NCBI GenBank assembly: GCA_949130485.1
Contig: OX422202.1
Location: 6,948,221 to 7,012,220, forward strand
DNA length: 64,000 bases
Direction: 5' to 3'
Origin: Agelas oroides
Taxonomy: Eukaryota > Porifera > Demospongiae > Agelasida > Agelasidae
Shown: positions 1 through 53,586 of the stretch, one piece after another
Numbering within the stretch: the first letter of the stretch is position 1
Layout: every line of letters starts with the position of its first letter
Program-made: the position numbers and the translations under genes
The notes under the pieces: generated by a model
The model's database searches: none
Told to the model about the DNA's origin: nothing
What the model saw: only the letters and a program-made list of their open reading frames with translations

Positions 1-313
1 CATCTTCACTGCCAATGCTCTGGATGCACTCTTCCACCTTCAACCGGAGACGCTTCCTCCACTTCTCTTCCTGCTCCCTGAACCTCTTCTCTCCCAGGAA
101 CTGTCTCATGGTGTAGATCAAGTCCCTCACACAACTGAAGTTCACAACCGGACACTCCTCCATGATATCACACACCTTGATGACATTCGCCGAGTTCACA
201 CTACCTTTCCACTGGAGAAGCTCTTCATGTTGTTCGAGGTAGTCCCAGAACTTGTGGTAGGCAGCCACATACTCTTCCCACTGCCCCTTGGTAGCCATGT
301 CTGGTGTAGCCAT
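1..313 (-). CDS. GIY-YIG family paralogue, first exon only (runs off left edge)
   Basis: Reverse-strand ATG at 313 opens a frame beginning MATPDMATKGQWEEY that stays open to base 1. It is nearly identical to the first exon of the complete paralogue at 6126-6426. It encodes the helical, charged N-terminal domain (about 100 residues, with the stretch MEECPVVNFSCVRDL). The window stops almost exactly where the sister copy has its first splice donor, so the remaining exons, including the GIY-YIG domain, should lie to the left. Function of this N-terminal domain is unknown to me. Confidence 0.7.
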   Translation of the reverse strand, partial: MATPDMATKGQWEEYVAAYHKFWDYLEQHEELLQWKGSVNSANVIKVCDIMEECPVVNFSCVRDLIYTMRQFLGEKRFREQEEKWRKRLRLKVEECIQSIGSED

Positions 314-839
314 GTCTAGTGGAGCTTCTGATCTATTAGCTCGGTGGTCACTAGTCTTCTAGCTATTACTGTATGTAACTTAGCTGTATTACACAAGTTC
401 TTGACAGTACAGCTGCAGTGCCTTCTTGGTTGTTGTCTCTGAACTTTAGCCGAGCTAGCTACGTACATGTCATATGCAATTGGAGGAATGTACATATTTA
501 CTGAGGAATGTCAGCTCATAGTTGTGTGCGCGTGGTACTTGCGTGCTGGAAGATTCTGTAATTACCTTGGTAATAAGATTTGCATGCTTGGTTACATTCA
601 CTTGACTACTCCCCCTCCTCCTCCTCTTGGTCTACCCAGACAACTAGTCAGGCTTAAACTAGTGATCATTGTTTCTCTGTGATTTTGAATGTGGATTGCC
701 TTGGCCCTCTGTTATATCTCTTGTTGGGACTCTTCATTGGTTTTACCCCATGTGTGGAAGATGCTATTATTATAAAATGTAGCGGTAGAATAAGATGCAT
801 GCGTACATCAACCAAAAGACTGATTCAATTTAGTGAGAA

Positions 840-1190
840 CAGCCGCTATCAGTAATCTTTTTGTTGCCAACTAACTTTTTACTCCATTTTCCATTTCAGC
901 ACATCCCATTGCTTTTAACTCATGTCTTTGGCGTTCTTCTTCAATTCTTCTAGCAGCTGATTCATCATTCCAAACTTCATGTTTGTCACGGACACATCTC
1001 CTTCTAGTGGCTCTTGTATCAGTATCCCTTTACATATCTCTTTATTTGTGGGTCCTAGGACAAACATCGCCACATAGTCTTATAGGTCCTCTCCTCTCTG
1101 ACTGAGTAGAGTGAAATTGAAGTGAACAAGCATCCTATCATCCTTTCCATATGTTCTTCACAAGACTTCTTTCAGAAAGTACCCCTGATT
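840..1190 (-). pseudogene. Eroded C-terminal fragment of a GIY-YIG paralogue
   Basis: Reverse-strand translation gives broken matches to the C-terminal half of the intact copy at 4508: RGEDL, then a stop, DYVAMFVLG, NKEICK, SVTNMKFGM and finally VGNKKITDSG, where the intact gene has VGNKIITDFF. In-frame stops and frameshifts separate the matches. The same fragment recurs at about 6958-7200 inside the segmental duplication, so the decay predates that duplication. Confidence 0.6.
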
Positions 1191-1333
1191 GGCTGGTTTG
1201 AACTTTTCAGGTGGATCATAGTTTATGTGCTGCACAAAATTACTACTTCCTCTTACATGTGTCTGTATGGGCGAGGACAGTATGGGTGAACGCGAGTACG
1301 ACATCGTGATTGCTGCCACCTTTCTGATATTTT

Positions 1334-3914
1334 TCATTCTGGTGTCCATAAAAACAGTTTGTTCCCCCTCATATCTTCTCCATGCCACTTTCCTTCTCTG
1401 TGGCCCCTCCACATTTCTTCTTCTCTGTGGCCCCTCCTCATTTCTTCTCTGTGGCCCCTCCTCATTTCTTCTTCTCTGTGGCCCCTCCTCATTTCTTCTC
1501 TGTGGCTCTCCTCATTTCTTCTCTGTGACCCCTCCTCATTTCTTCCCTGTGACCCCTCCTCATTTCTTCTCTGTGGCCCCTCCTCATTTCTTCCCTGTGG
1601 CCCCTCCACATTTCCTCTTCCCTGTGGCCCCTCCTCATTTCTTCCCTGTGGCCCCTCCTCATTTCTTCCCTGTGGCCCCTCCTCATTTCTTCCCTGTGGC
1701 CCCTCCACATTTCTTCTTCTCTGTGGCCCCTCCTCATTTCTTCCCTGTGGCCCCTCCTCATTTCTTCCCTGTGACCCCTCCTCATTTCTTCTCTGTGGCC
1801 CCTCCTCATTTCCTCTTCCCTGTGGCCCCTCCTCATTTCTTCCCTGTGGCCCCTCCTCATTTCTTCCCTGTGACCCCTCCTCATTTCTTCTCTGTGGCCC
1901 CTCCTCATTTCCTCTTCCCTGTGGCCCCTCCTCATTTCTTCCCTGTGGCCCCTCCACATTTCCTCTTCCCTGTGGCCCCTCCACATTTCTTCCCTGTGGC
2001 CCCTCCACATGTCCTCTTCCCTGTGGCCCCTCCTCAATTCTTCCCTGTGACCTCTCCTCATTTCCTCTTCCCTGTGGCCCCTCCTCATTTCTTCCCTGTG
2101 ACCTCTCCTCATTTCCTCTTCCCTGTGGCCCCTCCTCATTTCTTCTCTGTGACCCCTCCTCATTTCTTCTCTGTGACCCCTCCTCATTTCTCCTTCTCTG
2201 TGTTCCCCCATTTCTCCTTCTCTGTGTTCCCCCATTTCTCCTTCTCTGTGTTCCCCCATTTCTCCTTCTCTGTGTTCCCCCATTTCTCCTTCTCTGTGTT
2301 CCCCCATTTCTCCTTCTCTGTGTTCCCCCATTTCTCCTTCTCTGTGTTCCCCCATTTCTCCTTCTCTGTGTTCCCCCATTTCTCCTTCTCTGTGTTCCCC
2401 CATTTCTCCTTCTCTGTGTTCCCCCATTTCTCCTTCTCTGTGTTCCCCCATTTCTCCTTCTCTGTGTTCCCCCATTTCTCCTTCTCTGTGTTCCCCCATT
2501 TCTCCTTCTCTGTGTTCCCCCATTTCTCCTTCTCTGTGTTCCCCCATTTCTCCTTCTCTGTGTTCCCCCATTTCTCCTTCTCTGTGTTCCCCCATTTCTC
2601 CTTCTCTGTGTTCCCCCATTTCTCCTTCTCTGTGTTCCCCCATTTCTCCTTCTCTGTGTTCCCCCATTTCTCCTTCTCTGTGTTCCCCCATTTCTCCTTC
2701 TCTGTGTTCCCCCATTTCTCCTTCTCTGTGTTCCCCCATTTCTCCTTCTCTGTGTTCCCCCATTTCTCCTTCTCTGTGTTCCCCCATTTCTCCTTCTCCG
2801 TGTTCCCCCATTTCTCCTTCTCCGTGTTCCCTCATTTCTCCTTCTCCGTGTTCCCCCACTTCTCCTTCTCCGTGTTCCCCTCCTCACTTCTTCGTCTTTG
2901 TGCTTCCTCGCTAGATCTTTTCCCCCATTGGGATTATTAGCACCTTGTTTATTATTCATTCCATATTTCATGTTGGTCACGGAGAAATCTCCGTCCAACG
3001 ACTCTCGTATCAACTTTCCCTCCACATCTTCACGTAATTTGCTATCAGGCGTAGTCCCCAGAGCAAATACTGCCACATATTTTGACAGATCTTCTCCTCT
3101 CTGCTGTGCATACTGGTTGATTAATGCAAGGTTGTAATGAATGATCATAGCTTTGCCTCTTGCATGCTGCTTCATCCTCTCTACCAGGGATTGTGATGTC
3201 TCCCCGATGTACCCCTGGTCTGCTGCCTCTTTGGAGACGGTTGGATCAAACATTACAATGTAGTAGACCCAGTTGGACTCTTTAGCTGGATCAGTCTCAG
3301 TGGGGTACAGGCCGTACTTGCTTTTAGTTTGGACAATGTCCTGGAAGTGTTTGTTTTTGTGGAATTTAGTTGGAAGTGGTTCATGTTTCTGGTTGCACCA
3401 AGTAGCTTCACCAGCACTTGAAAATTGTGGGGTGTAGATCGTAAGCGCATCAGACTTTGGATCTTTGTGAGCTTTGTAGCATTTGGAAAGAGCCACCTTG
3501 TGATCGCTGTATGAACTGAGCACTGGTTCATGGAGTGGCCAAATTGAGATTCGTGTGAGAGTTTGTGGAATGTATTCAGATGGAAATAGTTTGCCTTTGT
3601 ACCAGTCAGAAACATACCAGTGAGCTGCCTGAATGCACTTGCCCTCAGGATTTAGTGCTTCCTCAGTTATTCTCCGCAGTAGTTCACAGCACTGACATGG
3701 CTTAAGTTCAAAGTACTTCTTCACATTGACACAGAAAGTGCGTAAAATGTTGTAGTTGAGGATGAGTCCTTGCTGGCGGTAAATGTCCTGTCCATAGACC
3801 TGCGGTTTGTATTCTTGAAGTGGTAATTTCCTCAGGCAACGTTGCAACTCAGATAACCGTTCAAATCTTCTGGTGAACTCGTCTTGAACTGTGGCAATGA
3901 AATGACAATGTGAC
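1334..3914 (-). CDS. GIY-YIG nuclease-like protein with arginine-rich minisatellite tail (copy 1)
   Basis: An open frame runs from a candidate acceptor at about 3915 (first internal Met at 3847) to a stop at 1334. The N-terminal half (QVYGQDIYRQQGLIL, then ISIWPLHEPVL) matches the sister copies. The GIY-YIG core follows: VYYIVMF, GYIGETSQSLVERMKQH, the putative catalytic Glu in GKLIRES, and NMKYGMN. Known GIY-YIG nucleases use these Tyr, Arg, His and Glu residues to cut DNA. After KDLARKHKDEE the frame enters a 24-bp minisatellite translated about 29 times as RRRNGGTQ, then degenerate GPQGRNEE units, then HREEEMRRG. The final Trp codon of copy 3 (WTPEW) is TGA here, removing 23 residues. The upstream acidic exon (~3950-4035) has a stop, and no copy of the first exon lies before copy 2 ends, so this gene may be N-terminally truncated. 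Expression is uncertain. Confidence 0.6.
1380..2905. repeat. 24-bp coding minisatellite in GIY-YIG copy 1
   Basis: From about 2185 to 2880 there are about 29 near-identical 24-bp units. From 1380 to 2185 the units are degenerate and of mixed 21-24 bp length. The period is a multiple of three and the unit contains no stop codon, so long frames are open on both strands. Only the minus frame joined to the GIY-YIG domain is likely to be meaningful. Confidence 0.9.
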
Positions 3915-4051
3915 TATCTGGCAGATACTACAGCATACTTGGTGGTCCTCACCTCTGTCAGTCAGTCTTGTGCGGAGCAAGTCGGATTGACTTCTGTTCC
4001 CAAATCAGCCTCCTTCTTGTCCTCAACAAGTGATCATCTTGTCTCTATTTC

Positions 4052-4335
4052 ATATGTGGACCCAAGAGCGCATAAGAACAGGCGGCTAGAGTAAGAGCGT
4101 GTAACTCCAATGGAAGCCCACAGTCTGTGCAAAATTATTGAACCATACTAAAAATAGAATACCCAGTCACGTGCTTAGTAACAATGCCTTCTATCTATGT
4201 TTACACAGCATGCACAGTGTGTGTTACTATTTTTGTACTGGCGGTAAATTCCAACTGGTTTCAAATTTTACGGAGTTACACGCTCTTACTCTAGCTGCCC
4301 GTTTTTATGCGCTATTGGTGGACCCCAGCCCTCTA
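4052..4335. mobile_element. Foldback (MITE-like) element with ~60-bp inverted ends
   Basis: The left arm at 4055-4112 (containing GCTAGAGTAAGAGCGTGTAA) is the inverse of the right arm at about 4268-4335 (TTACACGCTCTTACTCTAGC). The AT-rich interior has no coding potential that I can see. The element sits between copies 1 and 2 of the GIY-YIG cluster. Target duplications were not resolved. Confidence 0.6.
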
Positions 4336-4507
4336 ATTATTCCCTGTGACCCTTCACCCCATGTGGTGGAAGTTGATATTGTCATAAAATGTAGTGGTAG
4401 AATGAGATGAAATTCACAAATATTATGAAGTTTTCGCGGTCGAAAATATTCGCGGATGCACCATTGCAATGTATAAGCAAAATAACCTCAAAGACTGATC
4501 TACAAGT

Positions 4508-6426
4508 CTACTTAGTCTGCGGGAAAAAATCAGTAATTATTTTGTTTCCAACTAAGCTATTATTCCTTCTACTACTCTTCTTCATGGGCGTTCGACTCCG
4601 CAATGCTATTCCATGTGTCTCTTTCCCTCCACTCATTTTCAAAATGATTCGTCTCCTCCGTTTTCCACTTGGCTTCAAATTTTCAGTGTTTGATACTTCT
4701 TTTACCATTTCAGCAAATTCCTTCTCATGCTTGGCTTGTAACTCCTGTCTTTTAGTCGAGCAAGCTGTGCGTTGTTCCTCAATTTTTGTTTGATCAGGCT
4801 GTTTAGCTGATCCATGATTCATTCCATACTTCATGTTTGTCACTGAAAAATCTTGATCGGACAACTCTCCCAATTTTGCAAGTGAAACACCTTTCAACTC
4901 CCCTATTAGTATCCGCTCTACATGTTTGCATATCTCCTTATTTGTGTTTCCTAGGACAAACATTGCCACATAGTCTGATAGATCCTCTCCTCTCTGTTGC
5001 ACATACTGGTTTAGTGAAGTGAGATTGTAGTGAACAAGCATCTGATCATGTTCCCCTTTCGACCCTGTATGTTCTTTCCATCTTTTCAATGGACTTCTTT
5101 TAGTCATTCCAATGTACCCTTGCTCAGCTGCCTCAGGAGAGACGGTCGGATCAAACATCACGATGTAGTAGACCCAGTTGGACTTTTCAGCTGGATCAGT
5201 TTCAGCAGGGTACAGGCAGTAGTCTTCACCTCTGACTATGTCCATCACTCGCTGAAAGTGCGGGCTGTCAGTGATGTTTTGCAGAAATGATTCGGTTTTC
5301 AGCAGTTTCTTTGTACTATCTTCACACCCGTGCAGAAAGATGACTTCATTTTCTGTTGTATAGAGTGGAATGTAGATTGGTGGTGTGGTAGACTTTGTCT
5401 TACCCTGGTCTTGCGACTCTGCTCTGTTGGCTTCACAGCGCTTGACAAGTGCTTCACAGCGACTACTGTATGAACCGAGCACTGGCTCATGGAGTGGCCA
5501 GATTGAGATTCGTGTGAGAGTTTGCAGTATGTCTTCAGATGGAAGTAGTTTGCCTTTATACCAGTCAGGTATGTATTTGTCAACTGCCTGAGTGCACACA
5601 GCCTCAGAGTCCAGTGCTTCCTCAGCTACTCTCCGCAGTAGATCACAGCACTGACATGGCTCAAGTTCAAAGTACTTCTTCACATTGTTGCAGAAAGTGT
5701 GCAGAATGTTAAAGTTGAGGATGAGCCCTTGCTGGCGGAAAATATCCTGTCCATAGACCTGCCGTTTGTATTCTCTGAGTGATAGTGACCTCAGGCAACG
5801 TTGCAACTCAGATAATCGCTCTAACCTTCTGGTGAACTCGTCTTGAACTGTAGCAATGAAATGGAGACATTCTGACTGGAAGACCTCTATCATACTCCTT
5901 ATATGGTATGGAAACACTTTTCTTACAGCAAGCGATCCTTACTTGTGCCAGTCAGTTGGCGCTTCTGTGAAAAGTTGCAAGTTGGATTGACTTCCGTTTC
6001 CAAATCAACCTCCTCCTCTTCACTGCTAGCCTCTTCATCTGTGGTCACAGTCATCATTAAGTCAGATATCACACAAAACACATTTTTATTACCCAATAAA
6101 CACTGGGCTCTGATGGTCAACTTACCATCATCTTCACTGCCAATGCTCTGGACGCACTCTTCCACCTTCAACTGGAGACGCTTCCTCCACTCTTCCTCCT
6201 GCTCCCCGAACCTCTTCTCTCCCAGGAACTGTCTCATGGTGTACATCAAGTCCCTCACACAACTGAAGTTCACCACCGGACACTCCTCCATGATATCACA
6301 CACCTTGATGACATTCGCCGAGTTCACACTACCTTTCCATTGGAGAAGCTCTTCATGTTGTTCGAGGTAGTCCCATAACTTGTGGTAGGCAGCCACATAC
6401 TCTTCCCACTGCCCCTTGGTAGCCAT
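4508..6426 (-). CDS. GIY-YIG nuclease-like protein, intact copy with PIP-like C-terminus (copy 2)
   Basis: Three exons give an in-frame 586-residue protein: 6126-6426, 6038-5943 and 5871-4508. Introns are 87 bp (GTAAGT...CACAG) and 71 bp (GTAAGG...GTCAG). I chose the ATG at 6426 because the in-frame ATG of the paralogue at 313 is GTG here. Domains in order: helical N-terminal domain (1-100); acidic linker (EEEEVDLETEV); a region of about 220 residues of unknown fold (QVYGQDIFRQQGLIL, ISIWPLHEPVL); the GIY-YIG core at about 364-500 (WVYYIVMF, GYIG, LKRWKEH, Glu in LIGELKG, NMKYGMN); a Lys/Arg-rich tail (KRRRR); and the terminus NKIITDFFPQTK, like a PCNA-binding box with Asn in place of Gln. 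No reverse transcriptase is present. The likely role, inferred only from the family, is a DNA-structure or restriction-like nuclease. Confidence 0.75.
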
Positions 6427-6957
6427 GTCTGGTGTAGCCACGTCTAGTGGAGCTTCTGATCTATTAGCTCAGTGGTCACTAGTCTCCTAGCTATTACTGT
6501 ATGTAACTTAGCTGTATTACACAAGTTCTTGACAGTACAGCTGCAGTGCCTTCTTGGTTGTTGTCTCTGAACTTTAGCCGAGCTAGCTACGTTCACGTCA
6601 TATGCAATTGGAGGAATGTACATATTTACTAAGGAATGTCAGCTCATAGTTGTGTGCGCATGATACTTGCGTGCTGGAAGATTCTGTAATTACCATGGTA
6701 ATAAGATTTGCATACTTGGTTACATTCACTTGACTACTCCCCCTCCTCCTCCTCTTGGTCTACCCAGACAACTAGTCAGGCTTAAACTAGTGATCATTGT
6801 TTCTCTGTGCTTTTGAATGTGGATTGCCTTGGCCCTCTGTTATATCTCTTGGGACTCTTCATTGGTTTTACCCCATGTGTGGAAGATGCATAAAATGTAG
6901 CGGTAGAACAAGATGCATGCGTACATCAACCAAAAGACTGATTCAATTTAGTGAGAA

Positions 6958-7200
6958 CAGCCGCTATCAGTAATCCTTTTGTTGCCAACTTCATTCTTTT
7001 TACTCCATTTTCCATCCCATTGCTTTTAACTCATGTCTTTGGCGTTCTTCTTCAATTCTTCTAGCAGCTGATTCATCATTCCAAACTTCATGTTTGTCAC
7101 GGACACATCTCCTCCTTCTAGTGGCTCTTGTATCAGCATCCCTTTACATATCTCTTTATTTGTGGGTCCTAGGACAAACATCGCCACATAGTCTTATAGG
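6958..7200 (-). pseudogene. Second copy of the eroded GIY-YIG C-terminal fragment
   Basis: Same broken sequence as 840-1190, including the degraded VGNKxITD stretch and the SVTNMKFGM match, with small extra indels. It lies in the right copy of the segmental duplication, just downstream of copy 3. Confidence 0.55.
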
Positions 7201-7252
7201 TCCCCTCTTCGGCGATAATGTTCACTTTTATGTGCTGCACAAAATTATCCTA

Positions 7253-9559
7253 TTATGGGTGAGGATAGTATGGGTGAACGCGAGTACGACGTCGTGATTG
7301 CTTCCACCTTTCTGATATTTTCCATTCTGGTGTCCATGAAAATAGTTTGTCTCTGTGTCTCCTCATTTCGTCTTCTCTGTGTCTCCTCATTTCGTCTTCT
7401 CTGTGTCTCCTCATTTCGTCTTCTCTGTGTCTCCTCATTTCGTCTTCTCTGTGTCTCCTCATTTCGTCTTCTCTGTGTCTCCTCATTTCGTCTTCTCTGT
7501 GTCTCCTCATTTCGTCTTCTCTGTGTCTCCTCATTTCGTCTTCTCTGTGTCTCCTCATTTCGTCTTCTCTGCGTCTCCTCATTTCCTCTTCTCTGCGTCT
7601 CCTCATTTCCTCTTCTCTGCGTCTCCTCACATCATCTTCTCTGCGTCTCCTCACATCATCTTCTCTGCGTCTCCTCACATCATCTTCTCTGCGTCTCCTC
7701 ACATCATCTTCTCTGCATCTCCTCACATCATCTTCTCTGCGTCTCCTCACATCATCTTCTCTGCGTCTCCTCACATCATCTTCTCTGCGTCTCCTCATAT
7801 CGTCTTCTCTATGCCCTCCACTCATATCGTCTTCTCTATGCCCCCCACTCATATCGTCTTCTCTATGCCCTCCACTCATATCGTCTTCTCTATGCCCCCC
7901 ACTCATATCGTCTTCTCTATGCCCTCCACTCATATCGTCTTCTCTATACTTCCTCGCTAGATCTTTTCCCTCATTGGGATTATTAGCACCCTGTTTATTA
8001 TTCATTCCATATTTCATGTTGGTCACGGAGAAGCCATCTTCCATTGACTCTCGTATCAACTTTCCCTCCACATCTTCACATAATTTGCTATCAGGTGTAG
8101 TCCCCAGAGCAAATACTGCTACATACTCCGACAGATTTTCTCCTCTCTGGTGTGCGTACTGGCTGATTAGTGCAAGGTTGTAATGAATGATCATAGCTTT
8201 GCCTCTTGCATGCTGCTTCATCCTGTCTACCAGGGATTGTGATGTCTCCCCAATGTACCCCTGGTGTGCTGCCTCTTTGGAGACGGTTGGATCAAACATT
8301 ACAATGTAGTAGACCCAGTTGGACTCTTTAGCTGGATCAGTCTCAGTGGGGTACAGGCCGTACTTGCTTTTAGTTCGGACAATATCCATCACTCGCTTGA
8401 AGTGTCTGCTTTTGTGGAATTTAGTTGGAAGTGGTTCACCTTTCTGGTTGCACCAAGTTGCTTCACCAGCACTTGGGGTGTAGATTGCAAGCACATCGGA
8501 CTTTGGATCTTTGTGAGCTTTGTAGCGTTTGGAAAGAGCTTCCTTGCGATCATCGTATGAACTGAGCACTGGTTCATGCAGTGGCCAGATTGAGATTCGT
8601 GTGAGTATTACTGGTACACCTTTATATGGAAATTCTTTGCAATTGTACCATTCAACTGCCTGAATGCACAATGCCTCAGGGTCAAATGCTTCCCGAGTTA
8701 GCTTGTCTAGTAGTAGGCCACTGTCACGTGGCCCAACTTTAAAAATCCTCATCACATTGTTGCAGAAAGTGCGTAGAATATTGAAGTTGAGGATGAGCCC
8801 TTGCTGGTGGTAAATGTCCTGTCCATAGACTTGTTTTTCATACTTGTGGACTGGTAGAATGTTCAGCTCTCCTTGCTTCTCAAGCAAACCGTCAGCTCTT
8901 TTGGTGAACCCCTCGAGAACTATGGCATTGAAATGAAGACATTTTGGAAGAGGTAAATTGATAAGAACCATGAGACCCTTACCGCTATCCATCAGCTGGT
9001 GTGTTTGTAGGAAGTTGCATACTGGATTCACAACCACTCCAAGGTCAACCTTCTCCTTTTCTGTGGCGAGCAAGGTCACATATTACATTGTGTATTTCTT
9101 AATCATGGTTTAGTCTAGGTGAAAGTGGTTTATTTGAAGTTCTGTTTCTACATTGCCTGAGTCATCATTATACGCAAACCAGCTGAACTAATGTAGGAGT
9201 TTAACTTTGCATAATCCAACCAATAGGCTCGCAGTGCTTGCTAAGTAACCTATCTTCACCTTCTTTCCTACTAATGATTTCATTGCACCTCTCCACCTTC
9301 AACCCGAGACACTTCTTCCACTCTTCCTCCTGCTCCCTGAACCTCTTCTCTCCCAGGAACTGTCTCATGGTGTAGATCAAGTCCCTTACACAACTGAAGT
9401 TCACCACCGGACACTCCTCCATGATACGACACACCTTGTTGACGTTCGACAACCAGTTCAAAGTGCTCTCCCTTTGTAGAAGCTCTTCATGTAGTTCCAG
9501 AAGTCATGGTAGGCATTTACATACTCATCCCACAGCCTCTTGGTGGCTGGTGTAGCCAT
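7253..9559 (-). CDS. GIY-YIG nuclease-like protein with charged repeat tail, damaged first exon (copy 3)
   Basis: The main exon (7253-9060, acceptor CGCCACAG just upstream) encodes QVYGQDIYHQQGLIL, ISIWPLHEPVL and the GIY-YIG core (VYYIVMF, GYIGETSQSLVDRMKQH, GKLIRES, NMKYGMN). A repeat tail follows: 27-bp units as REDDMSGGH, then 24-bp units as EDEMRRHR, ending WTPEWKISERWKQ...YYPHP. The first exon lies at about 9201-9559 (ATG at 9559). Compared with copy 2 it has a 10-bp deletion near 9490, which shifts the frame into a stop, and its donor is weak. The gene may start internally or be a pseudogene whose 3' exon is still open. The tail is mixed acidic and basic, unlike the strongly basic tail of copy 1. 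Confidence 0.55.
7352..7950. repeat. 24/27-bp coding minisatellite in GIY-YIG copy 3
   Basis: About 18 units of 24 bp (7352-7800) are followed by about 5 units of 27 bp. The 24-bp unit is clearly related to that of copy 1 (shared core ACACAGAGAAG...GAAATG), so both arrays descend from one ancestral coding repeat that has expanded to different lengths. Confidence 0.9.
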
Positions 9560-10214
9560 GGTAGCTACATGTACCTCTTTGCTGGCAGCTGACATCTGTT
9601 AGAAATGGCCAAGCTTCACTTTCATGTAGACAGACTGTTTTGGAGATTGGAACTCAAGCCTGCTGCTGTTAAAAGTAACGTATAGCTTTGTACTTGAGAT
9701 AGTTTGAGAGGGTGTCCTTGGCTGTTTAGAGGTAAAGGAGATTAGCTAATGAATTGTTTGGAAGAAGATGGCTACATCATATTTTAAGACTCACAAACAA
9801 CACTTCCCCCCTGGTTTAATTGTGTACACCAAACACAGACGTACAGCTTTGTGTTGGCTTCGCTTGGTCCTCCAACTTGATCTCCTGATTGCAGGAAGTG
9901 TATTCATTGTAAACTGTTTGTTTTGTTGAGATTAATGAACCATGAATATAATGGGGTAAATTATGTAACAAAACTAACAAACTAAACTTGAATATTTATT
10001 ACTTGGTCCTCTCCTGCCGTCTTTTCCTCTTTCCCTCCTCTGTTTCTCCTTCACTTCCTCCCTTTGTTCTTCCATCCCTTCTTCCTTCCTCCTCACTCCA
10101 TTCCTTCCTTACTCCCCTCTCCCCTTCTCCCACCCTCCTCCCCCCCTCCCCTCCTCTCCCTCCTTCCTCCATCCCTCCCTCCCTCCATCCCTCCATCCCT
10201 TCCTCCTCCCCCAG
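9560..10214. other. Spacer between GIY-YIG cluster and first visible SORD exon
   Basis: No supported gene. I looked for the upstream sorbitol-dehydrogenase exons (zinc-binding domain) here and found none. The last 200 bp is a C/T-rich tract that serves as the polypyrimidine tract of the acceptor at 10213-10214. Confidence 0.6.
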
Positions 10215-13200
10215 GCCCCATTGGTCTAGTGTGCCTGCTGACAGCCAAAGCATGTGGTGCCTCAGAAGTTGTCATTACAGGTCAGTACCAGAATGATCAG
10301 TACCACAATGAATGAAAGGTCAAAGGTCATCGGGTGAGTGGGGAGTCTCACAAACCAGACTCACACAAAAAGCAAGTCTGGTTTGTGAGACTTGTAGGGG
10401 TTAACATACATTGCCTCTTCCCTCCTTCCTCCCCTTCCCTCCCCCTTTCCATCCCCTCTCCCCTCCCCTCCCCTCCCCCTTCCCTCCCCTCCCCTCCCCT
10501 CCCCCTTCCTCCCCTCTCCTCCCTCCCCTCCCCTCCCTCCCCTCCCCTCCCCTCCCCTCCCCTCCCCTCCCCTCCCCTCCCCTCCCCTCCCCTCCCCTCC
10601 CCTCCCCTCCCCTCCCCTCCCCTCCCCTCCCCTCCCCTCCCCACTCTCAGACCTTGATGAGGGTCGGCTACAGGTAGCCAGGACAATGGGAGCCACCCAC
10701 ACCCTGAGGGTCACCACCAGGGACAGTCGTGCTCTGGCTAGACAGATTGTTGATATCCTTGGGTCTCCCCCGGAACAGAGCATAGAGTGCTCCGGGGCGG
10801 AGCCAAGCATCGCCACTGCGATTTATGTGAGTTTGGGTGTGTGTGTGTCAGGGATAAGTAATTGAATTTGGCATGTTTTATTACTTGAGACAAAATTATC
10901 AATTACATCCGGTTATTCAATTACTACAACCCTGGTGTGTGTGTGTATGTGGTGGGAGGGGGGGGGGGGGGGGGGGGGGTACATGTACATTAGGCACCTC
11001 GTTGCATTGAGAATCTACAGAACATAGAAACATGATATTTCAGCAGTGTGTAAAGCTTGAGTTCAACTTTGACATCTTGTATGTGTGAATCTCAACAACA
11101 CAACTGGCTACCTCCTGGTATGCACCACACACACACAAACATGTCGTGTGTTGACAGGAGTTTGACAAGTCTGTTCTCCTCTCGTCTGCTTGGCCTAGTG
11201 TGACTGTATGCTGTTGCTATGGTTGTCATATCGCTAGCGGACATTCGTAACATTTTTAGTGTGGGAGTTGGTCCTCAAGCACCATTATTGTTAATGATAT
11301 TCACAAGTGTTTGGGGGTGAGGTTGCAGGTAAGATATTCATCAAGGAAATTGGTGCCATCCCAGGATTAATATGTTGGGAAAATCACACTAATTCATTAA
11401 TGGCAATGATTAATTGCTTTAAATTGTACTTACCCCAACTAAGACATCCTGGCTTTTGCATATTTCAACTGTCCCTCCTTTCCCTGTGTCTTCCCTACTT
11501 TCCACCCACCTTCTTTCCTTTCCTCCCTCCTTCTCCCTCCCTCCCTCCCTCCCTCCCTCCCTCCCTCCCTCCCTCCCTCCCTCCCTCCCTCCCTCCCTCC
11601 CTCCCTCCCTCCCTCCCTCCCTCCCTCCCTCCCTCCCTCCCTTCATCCCCCCTCCCTCCTCCTCAGGCAACACGCTCTGGGGGTGTACTTGTCCTGGTAG
11701 GGCTGGGTGCTCCAGAAGCCAAGCTGCCCATAGTGGATGCCTCAGTGAGGGAGGTCGACATCAGGGGCATCTTCAGATACTGCAACTGGTAATACAACCA
11801 TGGTACTATATTGTAGTCTGAAAAGAGTGTTCACACTCGCTGAAAGACCTCCCCATCAATACCTGTATTTCTTAGTAATAGTGAAGTCAAGCACTATTCG
11901 CCAAGGCTGAGAGAGGGAGGGGGTGGAGGAACAGGTATACACATAGCCACCATGATGTGCTTGGACAACGAAGGCTGCAGTAATCACTCACACTCACCCC
12001 CAACAATGCTTGTATTCTCTAGTATATTATTTCAATTGTCAGAAATGATGCTGACATTGGATCTTAGCTGGGGGTAACTTTAATCATTGTAACCGGATGA
12101 GTCAAATTCCGAGAAATTGGTTTATCGCCAAATTTTCAATGAATGTCATTATTTCAAGCCAGTTTGCAACATCATGTAAACACTTCAGTGGCTTCTCAGT
12201 TACAGTGGCCTGGAACAAGCAGTTCAGTGGCTTCTCAGTTAGCCTCGTTCCCAGGCCCTCTCCCTGTAAGCAATCAGGAACCGGACATGTACAGTGGCCT
12301 GGAACAAGCAGTTCAGTGGCTTCTCAGTTAGCCTCGTTCCCAGGCCCTCTCCCTGTAAGCAATCAGGAACCAGACATGTACAGTGGCCTGGAACAAGCAG
12401 TTCAGTGGCTTCTCAGTTAGCCTCGTTCCCAGGCCCTCTCCCTGTAAGCAATCAGGAACCAGACATGTACAGTGGCCTGGAACAAGCAGTTCAGTGGCTT
12501 CTCAGTTAGCCTCGTTCCCAGGCCCTCTCCCTGTAAGCAATCAGGAACCGGACATGTACAGTGGCCTGGAACAAGCAGTTCAGTGGCTTCTCAGTTAGCC
12601 TCGTTCCCAGGCCCTCTCCCTGTAAGCAATCAGGAACCAGACATGTACAGTGGCCTGGAACAAGCAGTTCAGTGGCTTCTCAGTTAGCCTCGTTCCCAGG
12701 CCCTCTCCCTGTAAGCAATCAGGAACCGGACATGTACAGTGGCCTGGAACAAGCAACATAGTCAGCCTCAACTTGCAGCCCGTAAAAAAATCAAACTAGA
12801 TGGTGTGAGCTAGAGGAACATTCAAGTGAGCTCTTGCCTAACGGGTACAATGGTCCGACCGGTTTCAACATATCAGAGTAGAATGTTCTAAACATGTCAC
12901 ATCATATCAGAGTAGAATGTTCTAAACATGTCACATCATATCAGAGTAGAACGTTCTAAACATATCACATCATATCAGAGTAGAATGTTCTAAACATGTC
13001 ACATCATATCAGAGTAGAACGTTAACATATCACATCATATCAGAGTAGAATGTTCTAAACATGTCACATCATATCAGAGTAGAATGTTCTAAACATGTCA
13101 CAACATATCAGAGTAGAATGTTAACATGTCACATCATATCAGAGTAGAATGTTCTAAACATGTCACATCATATCAGAGTAGAATGTTCTAAACATGTCAC

Positions 13201-14348
13201 ATCATATCAGAGTAGAATGTTCTAAACATGTCACATCATATCAGAGTAGAACGTTAACATGTCACATCATATCAGAGTAGAATGTTCTAAACATGTCACA
13301 TCATATCAGAGTAGAATGTTCTAAACATGTCACAACATATCAGAGTAGAACATGTCACAACATATCAGAGTAGAATGTTCTAAACATGTCACATCATATC
13401 AGAGTAGAACGTTAACATGTCACATCATATCAGAGTAGAACGTTAACATGTCACATCATATCAGAGTAGAATGTTCTAAACATGTCACATCATATCAGAG
13501 TAGAACGTTAACATGTCACATCATATCAGAGTAGAATGTTCTAAACATGTCACATCATATCAGAGTAGAATGTTCTAAACATGTCACAACATATCAGAGT
13601 AGAATGTTCTGGAACATAGTTACCCTACAATGTAACAGGATCTGTTCCAAACATGTAGAATATTCTGGAATATTAATGTAATACACCCATGGTATTATTG
13701 TACAATACAATGTACACACAAAGCTGTATTGTATTTATGTTATGAGTGTATCCTGCTGACAGCTACCCGACTGCCCTTGAGCTTGTGGCGTCTGGGCGGG
13801 TGAATGTGAAGCCACTGATTACACACACGTACAAACTGGAGGAGACGCTGCAAGCATTTGAGAGAGCCAAGACTGGGGAGGGAGGCACCATCAAGGTACG
13901 AGGAGAGGGAGGGGGGAGGGGGGGAGGGAGGCACCATCAAGGTACAAGGAGAGGGAGGGGGGAGGGAGGGGGAGAGGGATGGGTATGAAACAAGACAGAA
14001 AAGAGAAGAGAGAAGAATAAGTGGAAGCATTAAAGCTAAGGGCTGCATAAGAATGAAGTATGCGCTCCTATATTTTACGTACTTCCCTCCTGCCACCCTC
14101 TCCCATCTCCCTCCTGCCACTCCTCCTCCCTCATCTCCCTCCTGCCACTCCCTCCTCCCTCCGTCCCTCCTTCATCTCCCTCCTGCCACTCCCCCCTCCC
14201 TCTGTCCCTCCCCCATCTCCCTCCTGCCACTCCCCCTCCCTCCTGCCACTCCCCCCTCCCTCATCTCCCTCCTGCCACTCCCTCCATCCCTCCTTCATCT
14301 CCCTCCCTCCCTCAGGTGATGATAAGGTGCGGAACAGATGAACAATAG
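10215..14348 (+). CDS. SORD: Sorbitol (polyol) dehydrogenase, C-terminal half only
   Basis: Five exons join in frame to about 175 codons: 10215-10280, 10651-10826, 11667-11788, 13763-13895 and 14316-14348. The translation has the Rossmann NAD-binding turn ([20 protein letters not shown]), the acidic residue that contacts the cofactor ribose in VITDLDEGR, then [54 protein letters not shown] and [12 protein letters not shown]. These match the second half of animal SORD, a zinc medium-chain dehydrogenase that oxidises sorbitol to fructose in the cytosol. The first half (GroES-like fold, catalytic zinc ligands) is absent from the window. The first visible exon starts at phase 1, so it needs an upstream exon. 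Introns carry four tandem-repeat arrays. The enzyme would be inactive unless the missing exons lie left of base 1. Confidence 0.92.
10430..10642. repeat. CCCCT-type pyrimidine repeat in SORD intron
   Basis: Almost uninterrupted CCTCC/CCCCT repeats directly before the acceptor at 10649-10650. They form an extreme polypyrimidine tract. Confidence 0.9.
11525..11641. repeat. CCCT tetranucleotide repeat in SORD intron
   Basis: About 28 tandem CCCT units immediately upstream of the acceptor at 11665-11666. A G homopolymer (10958-10979) lies in the same intron. I saw no other gene in 10827-11666. Confidence 0.9.
12208..12757. repeat. 89-bp minisatellite carrying the hairpin-transposon tip
   Basis: About six nearly identical 89-bp units. 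Each contains TTAGCCTCGTTCCCAGGCC, which is the terminal motif of the hairpin transposons at 21703 and 60080. Short frames in it are repeat artefacts. It lies in the last long intron of SORD. Confidence 0.9.
12868..13611. repeat. ~34-bp minisatellite in SORD intron
   Basis: More than 20 units of about 34 bp (core ATATCAGAGTAGAATGTTCT). Some units are shortened to about 28-31 bp by loss of TCTAA-type segments. The variants alternate irregularly. Confidence 0.9.
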
Positions 14349-24400: not shown

Positions 24401-27400
24401 GTCACCAACTGTACAGGAACAGCTATACAGGAGGCTTGAGGTATTTGAGTGACTGGGAGATTGGGAGGTATTTGAGTGACTGGGAGATTGTGAGGTGTTT
24501 CAGTGACTGGAAGATTGGGAGGTATTTGAGTGACTGGGAGATTGTGAGGTGTTTCAGTGACTGGGAGATTGGGAGGTGTTTGAGTGACCGGGAGATTGGG
24601 AGGTGTTTGAGTGACCGGGAGATTGGGAGGTGTTTGAGTGACCGGGAGATTGGGAGGTGTTTGAGTGACTGGGAGATTGGGAGGTGTTTGAGTGACTGGG
24701 AGATTGGGAGGTGTTTGAGTGACTGGGAGATTGGGAGGTGTTTCAGTGACCGGGAGATTGGGAGGTGTTTGAGTGACTGGAAGATTGGGAGGTATTTGAG
24801 TGACTGGGAGATTGGGAGGTATTTGAGTGACTGGGAGATTGGGAGGTATTTGAGTGACTGGGAGATTGGGAGGTATTTGAGTGACTGGAAGATTGGGAGG
24901 TATTTGAGTGACTGGAAGATTGTGAGGTGTTTGAGTGACTGGGAGATCGGGAGGTATTTGAGTGACTGGGAGATTGCGAGGTATTTGAGTGACTGGGAGA
25001 GTGTGAGGTATTTGAGTGACTGGAAGATTGTGAGGTATTTGAGTGACTGGGAGAGTGTGAGGCCTTAAGCGGGTGGTTTTGCACTATTTGGTTAATATTG
25101 CAGCACCATTTGGATGTGGTGAGTTTAGGTAAGAGCACCATTTGGATCACTTCCCAAATCTTGCCCATAGCAGTTACTATCCTGGCTTCTCACTTAACAT
25201 TTCAATAGCAATGTTGGGAGAGGGTGTTTCATACCTGCCTATTATTATGCACCATTTGGAAGTAGCGAGAACCCTGTTGTGAGGTATTTGAGAGTGTGAG
25301 GTATTTGCGGCAGTGACTAATCTGTTATATCTCACTTCCTTCCTCCCAACATTCCTCAACTTCTCTACCAGTGACTCCTAGGATCCCAGCAGTAAACAAT
25401 GAGAATATGAAATATGAGAAGGTGCAGGAATACATTACGAGATACATGGGAAGTAGGTAACATTAGGAGCACACGAGTCCATGAATGTTTTGGAGACATT
25501 AAGGATGGACATGGCAACTTATACATTAAGGACTACATCACTGACAACTGGGCAGAAGAGTTCACGAATGTTTCCAAGATATGACGGCGGGAAAGTTGAT
25601 AGTCATCAATGCAGGTTCGTGGTCCCCAGGTTAGGTTCATGGTCCCCAGGTTAGGTTCATGGTCCCCAGGTTAGGTTCATGGCCCCCAGGTTAGGTTCAT
25701 GGTCCCCAGGTTAGGTTCATGGTCCCCAGGTTAGGTTCATGGCCCCCAGGTTAGGTTCATGGTCCCCAGGTTAGGTTCATGGTCCCCAGGGTTGGATTAT
25801 CCTCAGAAGCGGCTGACAATCTCACAGAGACAGCTACTGAGTGTTAAGTGTTAGCACTGCCAGTACCTCCTCTCCACCTTCAGTTCACGTGAGACAATGT
25901 TCCAAGCCTTCCCTCTCTATTTTAGCATACTGCAAGAGATGAAATCCTGGAGCTGGCCTGGGACTGACAGGGATGACAAGAGATGAAATCCTGGAGCTGG
26001 CCTGGGACTGACAGGAATGACAAGAGATGAAATCCTGGAGCTGGCCTGGGACTGACAGGAATGACAAGAGATGAAATCCTGGAGCTGGCCTGGGACTGAC
26101 AGGAATGACAAGAGATGAAATCCTGGAGCTGGCCTGGGACTGACAGGAATGACAAGAGATGAAATCCTGGAGCTGGCCTGGGACTGACAGGAATTAACAG
26201 AAGAGCCAATTAACCAACCACCTAGCTCAGTCAGCCCCACTCAATTACCATGGAGATGTACTTTGAACCCACTTAAGATTTGTTGTTGCTCATATGCATA
26301 TAAGTGGCTGTTTTGCACACAGAGACCTTTGAACCTTGACTTGAGATTTGTAGCAGGATTCAGCATGTCAACATGGTCACCTTAATTCTTCACCAGAACA
26401 CACACATACACAACGGCCACAAAGAAACTGTAGGATTTCTGATTTCTCTTTTCTCAAGATATTGACAGAAGACAATGAGAGAGCACAGGAAGGAGGCGTA
26501 CGTAAACTCCCCCCGAAGACCTTGTGTTCTTGGCGTCCACTGTATTGCGTGGATTCTGTTGTCAACAATCAGTTGTCTAGGTTATTGCGTACAGTATACA
26601 AGCGTGATATTTATTTATGGTGTGTGTACATGTCTGAATACGTGTGACGTGAGCTGTTAAAAATTGTGGAGGAAATACGCCAGGTCCAGGTCAATAATCA
26701 TGAGAAAGTTGACAGCAAACTTTCTTGCAAAGCTTTCCTGTGTTAGAGAGTTTCACGGGACGTGCCTCGGCCACTCTCGGCCGTCAGGAATGCGACAAGA
26801 TGAATAATCACAAAGTCCAATTCCTTGCAGTTCAATAGATATTTTGCTTTGGTGCGTACCTTTCTATAAACAGGCACAGGGAGGGAGCGGGTATTTCCAA
26901 AACAGACGCCACACAAGAGTTTCTACCAATCGTATGCAATTTACAGGTCACAGGGAAGCACAGTTTGGGAATGATGCAGAATGATGCATTAGTCACGTCT
27001 CGGAGGGGAGAAGAGGCAGACAATGAGAGGAGAGGGGAGAGGAGGCCAGACAATGAGAGGAGAGGGGAGAAGAGGCCAGACAATGAGAGGAGAGGGAAGA
27101 AGAGGCCAGACAATGAGAGGAGAGGGAAGAAGAGGCCAGACAATGAGAGGAGAGGGGAGAAGAGGCAGACAATGAGAGGAGAGGGGAGAAGAGGCCAGAC
27201 AATGAGAGGAGAGGGGAGAGGAGGCAGACAATGAGAGGAGAGGGGAGAAGAGGCCAGACAAGGAGAGGAGAGGGGAGAAGAGGCCAGACAAGGAGAGGAG
27301 AGGGGAGAAGAGGCCAGACAATGAGAGGAGAGGGGAGAGGAGGCCAGACAAGGAGAGGAGAGGGGAGAGGAGGCCAGACAATGAGAGGAGAGGGGAGAAG

Positions 27401-30400
27401 AGGCCAGACAAGGAGAGGAGAGGGGAGAAGAGGCCAGACAATGAGAGGAGAGGGGAGAAGAGGCCAGACAATGAGAGGAGAGGGAAGAAGAGGCCAGACA
27501 ATGAGAGGAGAGGGGAGAGGAGGCAGACAAGGAGAGGAGAGGGGAGAGGAGGCCAGACAATGAGAGGAGAGGGGAGAGGAGGCCAGACAATGAGAGGAGA
27601 GGGGAGAGGAGGCCAGACAATGAGAGGAGAGGGGAGAGGAGGCCAGACAAGGAGAGGAGAGGGGAGAGGAGGCCAGACAATGAGAGGAGAGGGGAGAGGA
27701 GGCCAGACAATGAGAGGAGAGGGGAGAGGAGGCCAGACAATGAGAGGAGAGGGGAGAGGAGGCCAGGCAATGAGAGGAGAGGGGAGAAGAGGCCAGACAA
27801 TGAGAGGAGAGGGGAGAAGAGGCAGACAATGAGAGGAGAGGGGAGAAGAGGCCAGACAATGAGAGGAGAGGGGAGAAGAGGCCAAACAATGAGAGGAGAG
27901 GGGAGAAGAGGCCAGACAATGAGAGGAGAGGGGAGAAGAGGCCAGACAATGAGAGGAGAGGGGAGAAGAGGCCAGACAAGGAGAGGAGAGGGGAGAAGAG
28001 GCCAGACAATGAGAGGAGAGGGGAGAAGAGGCCAAACAATGAGAGGAGAGGGGAGAAGAGGCCAGACAATGAGAGGAGAGGGGAGAGGAGGCAGACAAGG
28101 AGAGGAGAGGGGAGAGGAGGCCAGACAATGAGAGGAGAGGGGAGATGAGGCCAGACAATGAGAGGAGAGGGGAGAGGAGGTCAGACAATGAGAGGAGAGG
28201 GGAGATGAGGCCAGGCAATGAGAGGAGAGGGGAGAGGAGGCCAGACAATGAGAGGAGAGGGGAGAAGAGGCCAGACAATGAGAGGAGAGGGGAGAGGAGG
28301 CCAGACAATGAGAGGAGAGGGGAGAGGAGGCCAGGCAATGAGAGGAGAGGGGAGAAGAGGCCAGACAATGAGAGGAGAGGGGAGAAGAGGCCAGACAATG
28401 AGAGGAGAGGGGAGAAGAGGCCAGACAATGAGAGGAGAGGGGAGAAGAGGCCAGACAATGAGAGGAGAGGGGAGAGGAGGCCAGACAATGAGAGGAGAGG
28501 GGAGAAGTGACCAGACAAGAGAGGAGAGGGGAGAAGAGGCCAGACAATGAGAGGAGAGGGGAGAGGAGGCCAGACAATGAGAGGAGAGGGGAGAGGAGGC
28601 CAGACAATGAGAGGAGAGGGGAGAAGAGGCAGACAAGGAGAGGAGAGGGGAGAAGAGGGCATTTAGAGCAGAGAAACCACTCAGCATGTTGTCTGATGGT
28701 TGTAGCTCAGTGGTCGGTGCAGGGGCCAATTTCCCAGTGAACAGTGAGATGGGATGGATGCTTAGTCTGAGCGAGCCTTTGAAAGAGCCTTTGACAGTTA
28801 CTTGGACAACAACTCCAACAATGTGGCTGGGAAATTGCGTGTGCAGGCTATCGGTAACCACAGCTTGTCAAGGTAATTAGGTTGGAATTAACTTAATAGG
28901 CTGTGCAGTCTCAGAGTGGGGCACCACCTGTCTATATTGTCCCACCTTAACGATTGCATCTGTAGTGGCTGGCTGGCATATCATTGGGGGCTTAACTTCA
29001 CAGCATGCCATGTGGCCCTCAGATAAGCATGCACTAGGAGAACACTTTGTCACCGAAACCTGTCCTAGAGTGGTATACCACCTATCTACACGTCCCACAG
29101 TGACACCAGTTATAGGCTTCCATGCATAGAGCAGGCTCATTCAGGAGGTGTAGAGATTATGCAATATTTATTTAGCAGGAAAACTATGAGCTACAGTTGG
29201 TCTTTGAAGAGACCGTAAAGGAAGGATTCTCTATTGGCGTTAATGACATGAAAAACTCTCAGGAGAAACCTGACCATGGCAGGGGCAGTAAGTAACAGCA
29301 AGTGACCGCATTGGTAGACTTCCTCTCATCAACACTTTGACAGCTGCAAGACGTCCCAACAACTCTTTCAACTGCAGTGTTCTTCCACTGCTGTTCAGGC
29401 ACATGCGTGTTCTCTGCAAGAAAGCCTTGGAACGAGGCGAGCATAAGGCAGACTTCTTATTGTAGTCAGCTCTTAACTTGGAACGAGGCTAGCATAATGC
29501 AGACTTCTTATTGTAGTCAGCTCTCAACTCCTGTTCAGACACACGTCACGACATTGAGAAAGACTCGTACTGGGAAGAGTGGTCTGGGGAGCACAAGCTA
29601 TAGTTTCAACTTGAGGCACACATCAAGACAATGAGGGAAGGGGCTCAAGGCTACGCAAACATTCACTTTGCAAGCTGTGAAGCCATATAGCTGTGATTAT
29701 GGCAGAGGCTCACAGTTAGTGGAAGACCAAGCACGTGTGCTGATCAATGGCCAACACCTAGTTCAGGTCCACCCGGCCAAGGGCTTCCCAGGATGGTCAC
29801 AAGGTACAAGGTACAAGGCCATTACATGAACTAGGATGAACTAGGGCTTCAATAGGAGGCTTGGGTGTGCAGCATTTGGCAAGAGTAGAGGACATCGACC
29901 CTCTCTGGTACTCTCTGGCCCTCGTGGTCGTCCAGCAAAAGGCAGCCCGCCACATTGCTATGCAGGGAGCTGAAGACTGGTATACACAAGGTTCGAATCT
30001 ACCAGTTGAAGAAAGACGAACTTCTATTGATGAAAACTACAGAGGAGTAATGGATGACTTGTGTGTGCACTCCTTTCTGGTGTTTGGCAGTTCTTTCTGG
30101 CACTTGGCAAGAGTAGGGTTGATCAGCTTATGATATGAGGGTGTGTTCAAGTCATGCTGCACCAGATGTCAACCAGGGTGTGTGTGGTAACCATGGCAAC
30201 CCATTCCTACGACCTACACACCCAAACATCACTAAGAACATTTGAGTTCCCAGACATTGTTCTGTGGGTACAAGTGCCCAAATGAGGTTTTTATAAATTC
30301 AAGTTCACCATGGCATCAGGTTTTTGTCAAATTTCGTTTTAAAGTTGGTAACAGAAAGCCTTGTTTCTATTTATGCAGGAGCCAGGAAAATTTTTCTTCC

Positions 30401-41147: not shown

Positions 41148-51884
<10,737 letters not shown>

Positions 51885-51891
51885 CTGAAGT

Positions 51892-51928
<37 letters not shown>

Positions 51929-51989
51929 GTGGAGGGGGAGGGGGGAGGCTACTGATTAACAATGGCAGTAGACACCATAACATGGGAGT

Positions 51990-53057
51990 TGCACACACTA
52001 GAGAGCACTGACACACGAGTGTAAGATAACAAGAGCACCACACTAGAGAGCACTGACACACGAGTGTAAGACAACAAGAGTACCACGCTAGAGAGCACTG
52101 ACACACGAGTGTAAGATAACAAGAGCACCACACTAGAGAGCACTGACACACGAGTGTAAGATAACAAGAGCACCACACTAGAGAGCACTGACACACGAGT
52201 GTAAGATAACAAGAGCACCACACTAGAGAGCACTGACACACGAGTGTAAGATAACAAGAGCACCACACTAGAGAGCACTGACACACGAGTGTAAGATAAC
52301 AAGAGCACCACACTAGAGAGCACTGACACACGAGTGTAAGATAACAAGAGCACCACACTAGAGAGCACTGACACACGAGTGTAAGATAACAAGAGCACCA
52401 CACTAGAGAGCACTGACACACGAGTGTAAGATAACAAGAGCACCACACTAGAGAGCACTGACACACGAGTGTAAGATAACAAGAGCACCACACTAGAGAG
52501 CACTGACACACGAGTGTAAGATAACAAGAGCACCACACCAGAGAGCACTGACACACGAGTGTAAGATAACAAGAGCACCACACCAGAGAGCACTGACACA
52601 CGAGTGTAAGATAACAAGAGCACCACACTAGAGAGCACTGACACACGAGTGTAAGATAACAAGAGCACCACACTAGAGAGCACTGACACACGAGTGTAAG
52701 ATAACAAGAGCACCACACTAGAGAGCACTGACACACGAGTGTAAGATAACAAGAGCACCACACTAGAGAGCACTGACACGCGAGTGTAAGATAACAAGAG
52801 CACCACACTAGAGAGCACTGACACACGAGTGTAAGATAACAAGAGCACCACACTAGAGAGCACTGACACACGAGTGTAAGATAACAAGAGCACCACACTA
52901 GAGAGCACTGACACACGAGTGTAAGATAACAAGAGCACCACACTAGAGAGCACTGACACACGAGTGTAAGATAACAAGAGCACCACACCAGAGAGCACTG
53001 ACACACGAGTGTAAGATAACAAGAGCACCACACTAGAGAGCACTGACACACGAGTGT
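51990..53057. repeat. 45-bp minisatellite, ~24 highly homogeneous copies
   Basis: Units of 45 bp (GAGCACTGACACACGAGTGT + AAGATAACAAGAGCACCACA + CTAGA) with very few substitutions. The period is a multiple of three, so a minus-strand frame runs through the array into the CEP162 exon at 51884, but the exon has its own acceptor. A run of short 'GCTAGCCACTGTG' repeats lies at 51445-51700. Confidence 0.95.
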
Positions 53058-53586
53058 AGACTCTGCCCCACTCCCATCACATACATAGTGTTTGGGAGGG
53101 GCACCTGAAATGAACCCTCCACACTTTCTCTCCCACAAACATGAGCTGAAGAAGGAAAGGCTTTCTGCCACAGTGTCTCACAGCCAACATACACTGCATC
53201 CTACGTAGAATGGTTTTGATACAGGTAGAGAGGTGGGACATGGGTCGTATGCAGTGGTGAGAGAGCTTGAGTATCATGGTCTGAAATGTGTTGGCAAGAA
53301 CATCCATAGCAGTTTGTTTGAACCAGCCACACCCCATGAAAAGGCAGCCATGTTGGAGTGATTTGCACGTGAATGTGAACTCCTGGACTGCACTACCAAC
53401 CAAGCACTGATTGGCTACATCATACTGTCCCAACGATTCGAGTTGAAATCATAACATGGGAGATGCTTAATGACACATGGTTTTGCTTACATTCCATTGT
53501 TCAACAACCAACCCCCCAAACTACAAAGTGTTTACAGTGAAAGCTAACAAGACTGTGTGTGCAGGTCTAGTCTGTGTGTGTGAGCC
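53058..53586. other. Spacer between CEP162 exons and membrane-protein cluster
   Basis: No exon of CEP162 or other supported gene found. An open minus-strand frame (53077-53433) has no recognisable feature and no matching splice context. Confidence 0.5.

Follow-up and report, generated by a model that had tools for sequence, protein, structure and literature searches.

A tandem array of GIY-YIG nuclease-like genes in the sponge Agelas oroides

Copies of the array and their exons

The stretch of Agelas oroides DNA analysed here (the window; 64,000 nucleotides, with positions 1-64000 corresponding to C20:6948221-7012220, where C20 is contig OX422202.1) harbours a tandem array of GIY-YIG nuclease-like genes on its minus strand, at positions 1-9559. 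The array had been noticed in a sequence-only reading of this DNA and is larger than described there, with four copies (A, B, C and D) and two decayed fragments. Along the direction of transcription these are ordered A, decayed fragment, B, C, decayed fragment, D, and a tblastn comparison of the copies with the window recovered exon 1 and exon 3 three times each, along with two stop-containing fragments. From N- to C-terminus, the encoded proteins consist of a conserved region, an acidic linker, a second conserved region in the middle and the GIY-YIG domain (Table 1); the linker, already proposed in the sequence-only reading, is borne out by the translation of exon 2.

Copies B and D are open over three predicted exons. 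The gene now called B had been read earlier as a protein of 586 residues; the gene stands, whilst its length becomes 578 residues with the splice sites chosen here. Its predicted introns are of the GT..AG type and measure 87 and 95 bp, and all introns checked start with GT, finish with AG and are 61-95 bases in length. The position of intron 2 is common to all four copies; that of intron 1 was read for B and D. An N-terminal piece at window positions 1-340, formerly assigned to the start of the copy at 3.9-2.9 kb, is instead exon 1 of the fourth gene, D, in which a segment of the middle region is repeated internally. The two remaining copies are damaged at the front: exon 1 of A is frameshifted, lacking bases that B and D retain, and reads open for only 33 codons from its ATG, and C is without exon 1. 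In both A and C a minisatellite runs in frame after the nuclease domain and makes up most of the long open reading frame (ORF); such a minisatellite stays open in several frames, so that its ORF alone is no evidence of coding.

Table 1. Features of the array and its surroundings (window coordinates unless prefixed C20)
Feature	Position	Strand	Details
Copy B, intact gene	4508..6426	-	predicted exons 6426-6126, 6038-5943, 5847-4508; 578 residues
B exon 1, N-terminal region, conserved KVCDIMEECPVVNFSCVRDL.YTMRQFLGEKRF	6126..6426	-	A2 alignment; unknown fold
B exon 2, acidic linker	5943..6038	-	translation
B middle region (QVYGQDI, TRISIWPLHEPVL)	5228..5847	-	A4 alignment; unknown fold
B GIY-YIG domain	4817..5188	-	alignment; Pfam GIY-YIG 16.4 bits
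B catalytic codons, first base	Tyr 5170, YIG 5116, Arg 5083, His 5071, Glu 4918, Asn 4837	-	
B C-terminal peptide resembling a PCNA-interacting protein (PIP) box/degron, NKIITDFFPQTK	4511..4546	-	motif scan and shuffles
Copy A	7253..9559	-	exon 1 9559-about 9230, exon 2 9060-8983, exon 3 8919-7253
A GIY-YIG domain	7940..8344	-	catalytic residues kept (8311, 8257, 8224, 8212, 8068, 8020)
24/27-bp minisatellite, tail of A	7350..7947	.	
Decayed GIY-YIG fragment downstream of A	7029..7226	-	with stop codons
Copy C	1334..4030	-	exon 2 remnant about 4030-3953, exon 3 3888-1334
C GIY-YIG domain	2891..3298	-	catalytic residues kept (3265, 3211, 3178, 3166, 3022, 2974)
24/27-bp minisatellite, tail of C	1391..2880	.	
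Decayed GIY-YIG fragment downstream of C	903..1271	-	with stop codons
D exon 1, front part	1..298	-	intact 519-residue gene extending beyond the window to C20:6946834
D predicted exons	C20:6948518-6948110, 6948045-6947950, 6947888-6946834	-	
Element resembling a miniature inverted-repeat transposable element (MITE)	4062..4318	.	257 bp, in front of C; 47-bp inverted ends, 5-bp TGGAC duplication
Downstream sorbitol dehydrogenase exons	10215..11708	+	further exons at 10.7 and 11.7 kb

The C-terminal domain and its place among GIY-YIG enzymes

On the evidence of its sequence, the C-terminal part of these proteins is a GIY-YIG nuclease domain. The Tyr of GIY, YIG, Arg, His and Glu occur in canonical order and are invariant in all 28 rows of the A5 alignment, in which the four array copies are included, and the Asn of a terminal VTN is present in 4/4 copies; the catalytic set recognised in the sequence-only reading is thus kept in all four copies. 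Compared by hhalign with a profile built from 20 GIY-YIG loci of the sponge's own genome, the array domain gave P=2.3e-6, a score reached by 0/200 shuffles. The predicted structure shows a mixed b-b-a-a-b-a fold, but its input alignment included 24 known GIY-YIG rows; a model of exon 3 from the four array rows only had a predicted local distance difference test score (pLDDT) of 34. The Pfam GIY-YIG score, however, is 15.1-17.4 bits and lies under the gathering score of 22.6.

The remainder of the protein resembles no recognised family in the searches made, as the sequence-only reading had supposed. Exon 1 has no significant match in Pfam, NCBIfam, PADLOC or the PDB sequences, and the middle region has no significant family match; both gave Pfam rows only at E 0.11 or worse. 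A single PDB-sequence row for the middle region, a HEPN toxin at E 1.3, was treated as chance. By sequence, the PDB returned nothing for exon 3, a GIY-YIG domain or exon 1, whilst NCBIfam and PHROGs (the latter queried with three nuclease domains and exon 3 of C) gave rows only at E 0.13 or worse. Candidate relatives in viral contigs (19 stretches by the exon-3 alignment and 17 by the exon-1 alignment) and in prokaryotic genome contigs (32 stretches) yielded no confirmed relative, phages and plasmids gave no match at E<=1, and no paper on the family was found in the literature searched.

The genome (259,295,671 bases in 141 contigs) was searched by scoring the best candidates, and all counts from it are lower bounds; 150 GIY-YIG places were scored. 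Among these, L052 is a canonical Penelope-like element in which RVT_1 is followed by GIY-YIG, and L071 (C1:30856500-30864500) appears to be a permuted one, with GIY-YIG first and a YIDD motif later, although the part scanned has no Pfam reverse transcriptase row. The frame of L071 is open for 1012 residues with its GIY-YIG at the N-terminus, and 11 dispersed places share its 30.3-bit score, perhaps reflecting recent activity. Nine further short GIY-YIG frames (107-187 residues) crowd into 0.34 Mb at C1:17134386-17468852.

It is possible, if tentatively so, that the array domain was domesticated from a Penelope-like retroelement, losing the reverse transcriptase and a Cys pair and becoming fused to host sequence, a scenario compatible with a host gene family. 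The array shares with the endonucleases of L052 and L071 the core Y...YVG-x-T..L..R...H...E, and the own-genome set, of which the two elements checked carry a reverse transcriptase, is the best match to the array among the profiles tested. The YIGETSQSL..RM..H of A and C also resembles the YVGETSQAL..RM..H of another own locus, L063, which alone gave P=6.1e-5 against the array. In contrast, the Penelope-like elements of this genome possess a reverse transcriptase, a Cys pair between GIY and YIG and many dispersed places, none of which applies to the array; no reverse transcriptase appeared in Pfam scans of the family frames, in agreement with the sequence-only reading, the other frames of the array having been seen only as an ORF list. 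Between GIY and YIG the array domain is 7 residues longer than I-TevI, and it ends in VTN instead of GLN. In a domain tree the array copies group on a long branch of their own (100/100), outside 10 own-genome rows (98/99) rather than nested among them; the tree is short, long-branched and midpoint-rooted, and so cannot settle the origin of the domain.

The array was also compared with other GIY-YIG enzymes. LEM-3/ANKLE1 (PF22945), an animal GIY-YIG nuclease whose canonical domain is found elsewhere in this genome (C22:1093830-1094594; two rows, one frame), shares with the array, by eye, a 'DP' following the first strand and a TN close to the end. The array, however, has no GKG after YIG, and the exons of B have no ankyrin or LEM match in Pfam. 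Kinship from these two short likenesses was not borne out by the profile comparison, in which the LEM-3 profile against the array gave P=0.18, with 67/200 shuffles as high; this comparison is a weak one, since the LEM-3 profile reached only P 0.042-0.044 even against the other two GIY-YIG sets. The own LEM-3 single sequence gave P=0.74. SLX1 is likewise a eukaryotic GIY-YIG nuclease, and an SLX1-like exon (L064, named by eye) is present in this genome. According to the GIY-YIG classification (PMC1564403), SLX1 carries a RING finger but no C-terminal Asn, whereas the array keeps the Asn and shows no RING match in Pfam scans. Against the phage homing endonuclease I-TevI the profile comparison gave only P=0.0087 (an earlier homing-profile comparison with three copies gave P=0.02), and against the E. 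coli UvrC single sequence P=0.37. Unlike GIY-YIG homing endonucleases, the array consists of host genes with predicted GT..AG introns of spliceosomal type, group I introns not having been searched for, and Pfam scans of the family frames found no NUMOD match.

Genomic setting, duplication and selection

As far as the genome searches show, the family is found only at this locus. Exon 3 of B gave seven matches at E<=0.001, all inside C20:6946837-6957176, and exon 3 of C gave seven matches up to E=10, in the array only. Exon 1 gave five rows: one each for B and D, two for exon 1 of A, of which one has E 0.36, and a fifth on C19 that, at E 2.8, is at chance level. The array is flanked by plus-strand exons of what we take, by similarity, to be a sorbitol dehydrogenase gene, for which Pfam offers a weak ADH_zinc_N row below cut-off (E 0.011). 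These exons end near C20:6946765 and resume at C20:6958440 (window 10220), and the array (C20:6946834-6957779) therefore lies antisense within one intron of about 11.7 kb (about C20:6946765-6958434).

This setting bears on the suggestion, made in the sequence-only reading, of selfish spread or a homing-like element. A selfish, homing-like or transposing element we now regard as highly improbable. GIY-YIG enzymes are common in selfish elements, and the array is partly young, with flanks that are 95% identical (window 1-1096 against 6129-7210). Set against this, the family occupies one locus in 259 Mb, its genes are predicted to be spliced at shared intron sites, its duplication is local, the frames scanned hold no reverse transcriptase, and the sole inverted repeat pair in window 1-14000 belongs to a common MITE-like repeat. 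A single locus, antisense in one sorbitol dehydrogenase intron, does not support selfish spread, Penelope-like mobility or homing.

The copies are mosaics. The front of C is nearest to B (synonymous distance, dS, 0.36), whilst its nuclease domain is nearest to A (0.15, versus 3.1 to B). Similarly, D is nearest to B in front (dS 0.22; exon 1, 0.08), and its nuclease domain is nearest to A and C (0.47 and 0.49). Together with the near-identical flanks, this mosaic structure reflects local duplication with unequal exchange or conversion.

The GIY-YIG domain is the most constrained long part of the genes. Ratios of non-synonymous to synonymous distance (dN/dS, by Nei-Gojobori, some synonymous distances being saturated) are 0.07-0.31 in the domain for 6/6 pairs, whereas the front of the middle region has 0.30-0.67 and the linker 0.54-0.63; the TRISIWPLHEPVL stretch has values of 0-0.16 over 16 codons only. 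That the family is a decaying remnant, non-functional but intact until recently, could be argued from the frameshift in A, the missing exon 1 of C and the two relics with stop codons. We consider it quite unlikely, since B and D have open frames throughout their three predicted exons, and all six pairs show constraint on the nuclease domain.

Rather doubtful, too, is the idea of an immune effector, in which the nuclease would attack viral or transposon DNA and duplicates would diversify under conflict. Such a role would be in keeping with the duplication, the mosaicism of the copies and the higher dN/dS of the front of the middle region than of the nuclease domain, as it would with a GIY-YIG gene listed under balancing selection in a sponge study, though that study groups the gene with mobile elements (PMC7990798). 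However, dN/dS exceeds 1 in no window compared (some windows being saturated), PADLOC returned no match for the three proteins queried, and no immune domain was recognised.

The explanation that we favour, with a probability of about 0.7, is that the array is a host family of GIY-YIG endonucleases multiplying by local duplication and exchange within one sorbitol dehydrogenase intron.

The tail of copy B and a possible mode of action

Under this favoured explanation, and by analogy with GIY-YIG enzymes generally, the domain would nick DNA in a metal-dependent manner by the usual GIY-YIG chemistry, in which Tyr acts as the base and Glu holds the metal. The middle and N-terminal regions may select the substrate or partner, and the site of action would presumably be the nucleus, with branched, damaged or foreign DNA as substrate.

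Copy B may be more specifically directed. Its C-terminus is GNKIITDFFPQTK, and within it IITDFFPQTK shows both features by which CRL4-Cdt2 degrons are defined (PMC8871960), namely a TD pair at positions 5-6 and, at +4 relative to the PIP box, a basic residue. The pattern [ILVM]T[DEN][FYH][FY]...[KR] arose in 0.15% of 20,000 shuffles of B and in 0.015% when only its last 100 residues were shuffled; with the basic residue omitted and F or Y only allowed, the figure was 0.65%. The core [ILVM]T[DEN][FYH][FY] was not found in A, C or D. Through this peptide B may be recruited to PCNA-loaded DNA and removed there, and targeting would differ in D, A and C, because the peptide is absent from them. Three points temper this proposal: the Gln that starts a canonical PIP box is replaced by Asn in B, which is why we term the peptide no more than PIP-like; in the two relics the aligned DNA retains ITD but has no FF; and the motif was tested only after being seen. 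The PCNA and degron link of B is therefore treated as a lead.

A bolder picture, doubtful as a whole, would be an undescribed animal GIY-YIG family with two regions of no known family, one paralogue of which is tethered to PCNA and destroyed through CRL4-Cdt2, its sisters being free of this control, the array forming an antisense nursery of nucleases nested in the intron of a metabolic gene. To our knowledge, eukaryotic GIY-YIG families besides transposon enzymes are few, chiefly SLX1 and LEM-3/ANKLE1, and the 2006 classification, in the part that concerns them, is in line with this (PMC1564403). A further, locally expanding eukaryotic kind, one copy of which has a PCNA-box-like tail, would, if genuine, be a new player in the cutting of fork DNA or in defence. 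The intact copies B and D make these proposals directly testable.

Several features of the surroundings stand apart from the nuclease genes. The MITE-like element in front of C is unrelated to them, being a common genome repeat (2777 first-look candidates, 40 of these scored). For nine ORFs taken from elsewhere in the window, Pfam rows were either sub-threshold or absent. Simple repeats are present in the other sorbitol dehydrogenase introns read (C20:6945500-6960000, in the window to about 11.8 kb, plus strand), and long runs of tandem repeats with peptide-like reading frames, several of which are open, occupy window 51702-53177, 26832-28706 and 61517-63428.

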